Positions 8,715 to 8,873 of a stretch of 64,000 nt of DNA are shown one piece after another. A model generated the notes under the pieces. That model ran no database searches, was not told where the DNA came from, and worked only from the letters and a program-made list of their open reading frames with translations. This DNA comes from Pseudomonas entomophila. Lineage in GTDB: Bacteria > Pseudomonadota > Gammaproteobacteria > Pseudomonadales > Pseudomonadaceae. The stretch covers positions 5,817,001-5,881,000 of the forward strand of contig NZ_CP070982.1 in assembly GCF_018417595.1 (NCBI RefSeq). The letters run 5' to 3'. The number at the start of each line of letters is the position of its first letter. Positions within the stretch are counted from its first letter, which is position 1. Both the position numbers and the translations under genes were made by a program.

Positions 8715-8873
8715 GTGGCTTGTATGGTCGATTTGTGAGTTCAAATTCGAGTGCCAGGGTTCGGCACACAAGGCGACACGACGAGTCGTAGCCCAGCTAC
8801 GGCGAGGAGTGGCAACGCAGTGTGACGAAGTCTGGCGCCGAAGTTGGACTTACAAATCGGCCATACAGGCCAC
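8715..8873 (+). ncRNA. Long structured element between rep and xpt (candidate leader RNA or small RNA)
   Basis: Bases 8715-8757 pair with 8832-8873 in an almost unbroken helix of about 42 base pairs, with one A-G mismatch and one bulged A. Five pairs are G-U wobbles when read as + strand RNA (8720-8868, 8728-8860, 8737-8851, 8741-8847, 8752-8837). On the minus strand each would be an A-C mismatch, so the + strand RNA is the likely folded form. Inside are a CACAC/GTGTG stem (8765-8769 with 8820-8824) and a CGTAGC-CCA-GCTACG hairpin (8787-8801). The helix ends 21 bases before the xpt start. It could act on xpt translation, stabilise the rep 3' end, be a processed RNA, or be a mobile palindromic element. 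I do not recognise it. Confidence 0.55.

Follow-up and report, generated by a model that had tools for sequence, protein, structure and literature searches.

The analysed stretch of DNA (the window) covers 64,000 nucleotides of the Pseudomonas entomophila genome and holds, between rep and xpt, an element able to fold into one long hairpin (Table 1). The element is 159 bp long and is crossed by mechanically called open reading frames only. Positions 8715-8873 folded as plus-strand RNA at -104.7 kcal/mol (z -12.6, with 0 of 200 shuffled sequences as good) and the complement as RNA at -71.9 kcal/mol (z -7.2); the plus strand folded well as single-stranded DNA, too (-53.7, z -9.5). Refolding reproduced exactly the near-perfect inverted repeat that had been noticed in a sequence-only reading of this DNA, with 41 pairs between the outer arms, including five G-U pairs (8720-8868, 8728-8860, 8737-8851, 8741-8847 and 8752-8837), the helix being interrupted by a single A·G mismatch (8745/8843) and a single bulged A (8750). 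When the arms were aligned symmetrically, with no bonus for G·U, the window copy was found to have five isolated G·T mismatches and no A·C mismatch. The CGTAGC-CCA-GCTACG hairpin described for the interior was recovered; the branching described with it was not, the interior being a single stacked stem with internal loops in the minimum-energy fold. That the element belongs to no known Rfam family was confirmed, with 0 of 4227 families at the gathering score in the window and none up to E 5 in 8690-8900. An inverted-repeat search on the window stretch did not report the hairpin, presumably because the wobble pairs break the exact seed. Just 3' of xpt, at 9485-9560, there is a REP-like inverted pair, TGTGGGAGCGGGTTTACC...GGTAAACCCGCTCCCACA, which is unrelated to the hairpin element and which we take to resemble the usual P. 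putida REP doublet.

Table 1. Features between and including rep and xpt, with the basis of each assignment
Feature	Position	Strand	Basis
rep, ATP-dependent DNA helicase Rep	6664..8673	+	NCBIfam TIGR01074 over cut-off
Entire element (159 bp) in the rep-xpt gap, a degenerate copy	8715..8873	+ (strand with the conserved core)	Fold; core missing in 23 of 24 rep-xpt gaps
Left outer arm; first ~25 nt transposon-end-like	8715..8757	+	Pairing; IS630-type end match of arm-cluster mates
Inner left stem	8758..8769	+	Covariation and fold
Conserved core, AAGGCG...GACGAGTC-hairpin-GAGGA...CAACGC	8770..8818	+	Invariant or nearly invariant columns in 33 copies and in 29 copies
GACGA, opposite GAGGA	8780..8784	+	Invariant in 33 of 33 copies
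Terminal hairpin GTCGTAGC-CCA-GCTACGGC, with invariant U·G pair 8786-8802	8785..8803	+	Pairing; U·G in all 33 copies
GAGGA, partner strand of the GA-rich loop	8804..8808	+	Conserved columns in 33 copies
Conserved CAA bulge and CGC, with one G before	8812..8818	+	Conserved columns in 33 copies and in 29 copies
Inner right stem	8819..8831	+	Covariation and fold
Right outer arm, partner of 8715-8757	8832..8873	+	Pairing; covariation in 33 copies
xpt, xanthine phosphoribosyltransferase	8895..9467	+	NCBIfam TIGR01744 over cut-off

Distribution of the hairpin family

The search for further copies revealed a dispersed, mostly intergenic hairpin family, and thereby supported the mobile palindrome that had been one of the options of the sequence-only reading. 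The P. entomophila genome itself contains five exact cores, and all five places with the core pattern are hairpins. Within the genus, BLAST detected relatives in 38 of 149 genomes, and 105 of 398 genomes contain the exact core pattern, in as many as 21 copies. A covariance model of the core with 69 positions gave matches in 45 of 398 genomes of the phylum, corresponding to 27 of 212 genera. In named genomes the core was found in at least 119 stretches, mostly of Pseudomonas; among the matches listed there are also Azotobacter, Stutzerimonas, Endozoicomonas, Salinisphaeraceae, Woeseiaceae, Rhizobacter and Paucimonas, as well as one Myxococcota MAG, which may be misbinned. No match to the window element was obtained from the plasmid, phage and E. 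coli sources, three other subfamilies gave no plasmid match and one other subfamily no phage match, and the core pattern had 0 matches in viral contigs.

With the ORFs chosen by script, 144 of 147 copies lie outside ORFs. No constant partner gene was found beside the element; few loci share a flanking ORF, and those that do are mostly orthologous sites. The neighbouring genes run with the core strand in 148 cases and against it in 121, which is near even.

Several loci deserve separate mention. At a site beside a gene that is presumably maf-like, an element is kept in many genomes (L026, L044, L054, L057, L112, L115, L125, L234, L249 and L280, and also L029 and L240), with two groups of flanks; a domesticated copy is possible at this site. 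L064 and L098 share similar flanks and represent the same place with two different arm subfamilies, either by independent insertions or by arm replacement. In P. fluorescens PS691 (L092), three copies at 3282, 3442 and 3603 are arranged in tandem, head to tail and ~160 bp apart, which is unusual for a transposed element. In the P. entomophila genome, arms-only copies of ~100 bp are located at C1:3290459-3290563 (L161) and C1:3684888-3684989 (L165), and another arms-only copy, with a broken right end, at 3151432 (L158); the arms-only copies lack the core, and its loss looks like a deletion between two near-direct repeats, CAAGGCGCC and CAAGACGCC.

Core, arms and strand asymmetry

Most of the single-core copies displayed fold into a single long stem tipped by the same core, and some, e.g. 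L021 and L071, are not one stem from end to end. Among the 61 pairs followed through 33 diverse copies, 50 have changes on both sides, and 95.2% of the cells pair; cells with both sides changed amount to 507, versus 153 after shuffling and at most 141 after sliding. The arms diverge strongly from one subfamily to the next; the core, AAGGCG...GACGAGTC-T-GC...GCTA-GGCGAGGA...CAACGC, is nearly invariant. Within it, GACGA and GAGGA may pair as two tandem G·A steps that flank a single C-G pair. Below the tip, the stem covaries in 29 core copies; its 12 pairs with a double change were equalled in 55 of 500 shuffles, and each of the other four covariation measures in none or one of them.

Changes at orthologous sites were normalised and sorted according to their outcome. 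Watson-Crick pairs were replaced by other Watson-Crick pairs 113 times, by G·T 47 times, by A·C 20 times, and by transversion mismatches 52 times, with 15 other changes and with the one pair of different subfamilies (L064/L098) included in these counts. At the window site, ordered comparisons of three genomes gave 8 changes from a Watson-Crick pair to another one and 6 to G·T, with 0 to A·C, 0 to transversion mismatches and 0 others. The compensatory arm changes could come in part from template switching between the arms.

Arm mismatches were counted in an arm alignment that scored G·T and A·C alike, and only those with Watson-Crick flanks were used. The isolated mismatches of 201 copies comprised 455 G·T, 63 A·C and 337 G·A. 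With each position taken once per arm cluster, the counts were 190 G·T versus 56 A·C; 22 of the 26 arm clusters lean to G·T, 0 to A·C, and 4 are ties. Distant copies, strictly outside the model positions, gave 107 G·T versus 22 A·C (80 of 100 matches), after earlier partial counts of 157:25 and 98:19. An unbounded count, in which the core loops and sequence beyond the hairpin ends were included, gave only 573 G·T versus 476 A·C (122 of 134 copies). The wobble pairs of the window copy had been interpreted as the mark of a helix preserved as RNA: the pairing of one particular strand is upheld by the family-wide G-U excess; the RNA itself is not, as a single DNA strand would give the same asymmetry. 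Copies scattered in both orientations with equal A-C and G-U changes had been named as the sign of a mobile repeat. Scattered they are, but A-C and G-U are far apart, and the element is therefore a mobile repeat and strand-constrained together. The family seems to borrow the enzymes of different transposons and yet keeps one folded core, which suggests that the folded single strand, and not just the double helix, has been preserved by evolution.

Two cores on opposite strands were present at 11 loci, which are ten distinct places due to the overlap of L349 and L428, five being from one genome; such elements include L387, L390, L408, L409, L411, L414, L415, L428, L429 and L433. Folding of six two-core loci yielded for several an outer stem with two core-tipped arms, and for L415 one long stem. 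Each core of the two-core elements has more G·T than A·C in its own orientation, 13:4 and 15:1, respectively, in a small and partly related sample. Since one transcript cannot favour both cores, this speaks for a hairpin on either DNA strand, or for two-way transcription.

The orientation to replication was determined with dnaA as the origin and the opposite point as the terminus. By GC skew of the flanks, the core strand is on the C-rich strand in 92 of 147 cases, and the dnaA-based count was made because gene orientation confounds GC skew. Of 60 independent sites, all in complete genomes, 42 have the core strand in the lagging orientation (p 0.0027); possible reasons are insertion into the fork and loss of copies whose better-folding strand is the lagging template.

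Transcription from the core strand, giving a structured RNA kept by the hosts (a small RNA, an RNase III site or an mRNA-stabilising hairpin), would suit the RNA-like mismatch profile, in which G·T and G·A dominate, and the covariation at orthologous sites including that of the window. Against it stand the near-even gene orientation, the lack of a sigma-70-like promoter match in a scan of 8600-8960, the opposite-strand cores, each with a G·T excess that is impossible for one transcript, and the patchy presence, so that we regard this RNA as somewhat unlikely. We lean towards a DNA hairpin rather than an RNA for three reasons, each short of decisive: genes beside the element run in either direction about equally often, cores occur in opposite-strand pairs, and the orientation to replication is biased.

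Ends and candidate helper transposons

Many copies have the form CTAGTG...CACTAG, i.e. they have TA within CTAG at both sides; TA is absent from both flanks of the window copy. No fresh pair of empty and filled sites was found that resolves a TA duplication. IS630-family elements insert at TA according to the available sections of PMC2170065, and a preference for TA in CTAG is stated by a title in the reference list of the same paper. An insertion sequence with a DDE_3 transposase adjoins one core-less copy. The IS630-type element was matched in 10 of 35 genomes searched, in some as fragments only; the copy of the P. entomophila genome, at about C1:5036359-5037546, has a 361-codon ORF that is named IS630 by NCBIfam. 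At L179, an IS630-type insertion sequence with an in-frame TAG in its transposase adjoins the end of a core-less copy.

The IS630-type ends agreed with hairpin arms at 22 of 24 bases (L305), 22 of 26 (L307), 24 of 26 (L314) and 21 of 26 and 22 of 26 (L308), against 17-18 at best in 30 shuffles per end; the matches of five control IS ends were no better than those of their own shuffles. The arm-cluster mates of the window copy matched the IS630-type end of L308 at 20-21 of 26 bases, and the window copy itself at 12-14 of 26. The IS end regions compared resemble the hairpins at the ends only.

In distant genomes the same core is found in hairpins with other ends. The end TAGGGAACCTCTGCATAAATC of an insertion sequence of G491 with a PF01609 (DDE_Tnp_1) transposase matched hairpin L405 at 19 of 21 bases (shuffles at most 16), and the end GAGAGCCTGTTTACGATCTTTTCA of a DDE_Tnp_1 insertion sequence of G632, which has a 184-codon open frame, matched hairpin L415 at 21 of 24 (shuffles at most 17); in these comparisons the insertion sequence and the hairpin are from different genomes, and the ten distant hairpins were picked after the ends had been seen. 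The core is thus found with ends that resemble those of elements from two transposase groups, DDE_3 and DDE_Tnp_1. For the other subfamily of the P. entomophila genome, with the end GTGTCCTGTCTCGG, no insertion sequence was found; the single ends of this type in that genome belong to a core-less copy with a broken end and to an arm fragment, and at ten loci elsewhere such ends were part of a hairpin, of a copy that was cut or had no core, or of a bare match. No insertion sequence with GGAAGCTCTGAAYAAGTC ends, those of the f52 hairpins, was found in the loci examined, and three f52 genomes gave no DDE_Tnp_1 match.

MITEs proposed to be driven by IS630 are already known, and RUP with IS630-Spn1 of Streptococcus pneumoniae is a described precedent (available text of PMC2229807). 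The present element could accordingly be read as an ordinary IS630-derived MITE, whose long terminal repeats are kept alike by transposase recognition and template switching and whose core is a leftover of the founder with a fold of no role. The end matches to IS630-type elements agree with this, as do two core-less copies of ~100 bp in the P. entomophila genome that retain both ends. However, double-strand recognition or template switching alone does not favour G·T over A·C (455:63, no cluster of the 26 being reversed), many positions of the core are invariant while the arms differ, and the core also occurs in hairpins with the ends of other IS groups. The ordinary MITE is consequently held to be unlikely.

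Interpretation and related elements

Strand-biased cytosine deamination, combined with the survivorship of palindromes, was considered as a source of the asymmetry without selection on the fold. Changes polarised within clusters gave 54 G·T versus 11 A·C from G-C pairs and, less strongly, 37 versus 21 from A-T pairs (p 0.048); at orthologous sites, A-T pairs were seen with G·T 17 times and with A·C 15 times, which is about equal, and the lagging orientation of the core strand is a further point in favour. Since G-C pairs turn into G·T far more often than into A·C, and A-T pairs only slightly more often, strand-biased C-to-T change on the core strand may contribute to the asymmetry. As the full explanation it is improbable: G·T exceeds A·C in both replication orientations (lagging 105:21, leading 38:2), A-T pairs within clusters lean the same way, and deamination cannot make the 80 distinct double Watson-Crick changes (40 + 40).

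For the relation to xpt, the rep-xpt gaps were compared in the 24 genomes, P. entomophila included, in which xpt DNA was matched among 38 searched. The core is in the gap of P. entomophila only; the gaps of 19 of the 23 other genomes are 40-85 bp long (e.g. 64 bp at L183), and the four longer ones (L202-L205) were examined with the core pattern only. The element is also at the rep-xpt site of Pseudomonas soli LMG 27941 (L049) and, as judged by flank similarity, at that of L266 (G229). Being absent from the gaps of most genomes and present in few, it is therefore a lineage-restricted insertion. A small RNA excised between the two genes had been another option, and a dedicated rep-xpt RNA finds no support in these gaps. 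A cis-regulatory, purine-responsive and riboswitch-like xpt leader, attractive for its place directly before the xpt ribosome site and for the helix kept in the three genomes with the insertion, is rejected as hardly credible in view of the 23 gaps without the core, the many unrelated genes that the same core adjoins and the lack of an Rfam match.

The best explanation, to which as a whole we assign a probability of about 0.7, is that of a MITE superfamily whose members are mobilised in trans by transposases of unrelated kinds and whose common core is structurally constrained on one strand. Positions 8715-8873 would then be an old copy of a non-autonomous, MITE-like mobile element, whose outer ends would act as terminal repeats for a trans-supplied transposase of an IS630-family insertion sequence and whose insertion would take place at TA within CTAG, as the end matches and flanks of its relatives indicate. 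Unlike the usual MITE, the family carries a conserved core of its own at the tip of a stem of ~60-70 bp. One strand of stem and core is held folded across the subfamilies, which appears as covariation and as G·T excess, and the folded strand would be used in the life cycle of the element, most likely as a DNA hairpin during replication or transposition and less likely as RNA. The core may be a binding site for a putative factor that is useful to elements driven by unrelated transposases. A part in the control of xpt need not be assumed. More tentatively, and at somewhat less than even odds, the core hairpin itself may be the unit that is inherited, an ancient parasite of bacterial transposons that consists of structured nucleic acid and has retained one fold across Pseudomonadota and perhaps beyond, whose outer ends would have been exchanged or would have re-evolved to follow at least two DDE groups, and of which one strand would have to fold, as single-stranded DNA or RNA, for moving or copying.

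MITEs are normally seen as decayed insertion sequences with an irrelevant interior. In the hairpin family no part is better conserved than the interior, which is common to elements with the ends of different transposons and looks constrained as one folded strand. If true, this would provide a handle on how elements without genes survive their helper transposons and change from one helper to another, and on whether a hairpin intermediate takes part in their movement.

The unit of REP and REPIN sequences is a single-strand hairpin, and RAYT transposases are associated with them. The hairpin family is like them in consisting of intergenic palindromes, some in opposite-orientation pairs; its ends, unlike theirs, resemble those of insertion sequences with DDE transposases, and the window element measures 159 bp, versus 20-40 bp as given in the available text of PMC3733652. 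With RUP, as presented in the available part of PMC2229807, the family shares a length of 100-200 bp, the dispensability of a gene, the stem-loop and the intergenic position, as well as the IS630-like ends of some subfamilies and the probable TA target of many copies. It differs from RUP in that differing arms share a nearly invariant structured core, also found with the ends of other IS groups, in the strand-specific wobble excess and in the occurrence in many genera. The CIR repeats of Caulobacter and Brucella, compared by their description in the same part of PMC2229807, are two-armed like some of the double-core elements and differ in carrying a GANTC motif. MITEPsy1 of Pseudomonas syringae was shown to move, and its ends are nearly identical to those of ISPsy2, listed as 'IS5?' (available sections of PMC3189936). 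It is small and gene-less with a CTAG or YTAA target, like the hairpin family, and differs by its 100 nt and 18-nt repeats (PMC3189936, same sections); its end GGAAGGTCTGAAAAAGCC resembles the f52 hairpin ends.

Within the literature covered, most subscription journals and supplements being outside this scope, no title or abstract was found that describes the core and no report of a structured core common to MITEs of unrelated transposases, and a text search with core strings returned only unrelated papers. R178 of P. fluorescens, as it appears in Table 3 of PMC2718517 (available part), is 101 bp long, has an internal 11-bp inverted repeat and is present in copies in all three strains; to judge by this description, it could belong to the hairpin family and might be the core.
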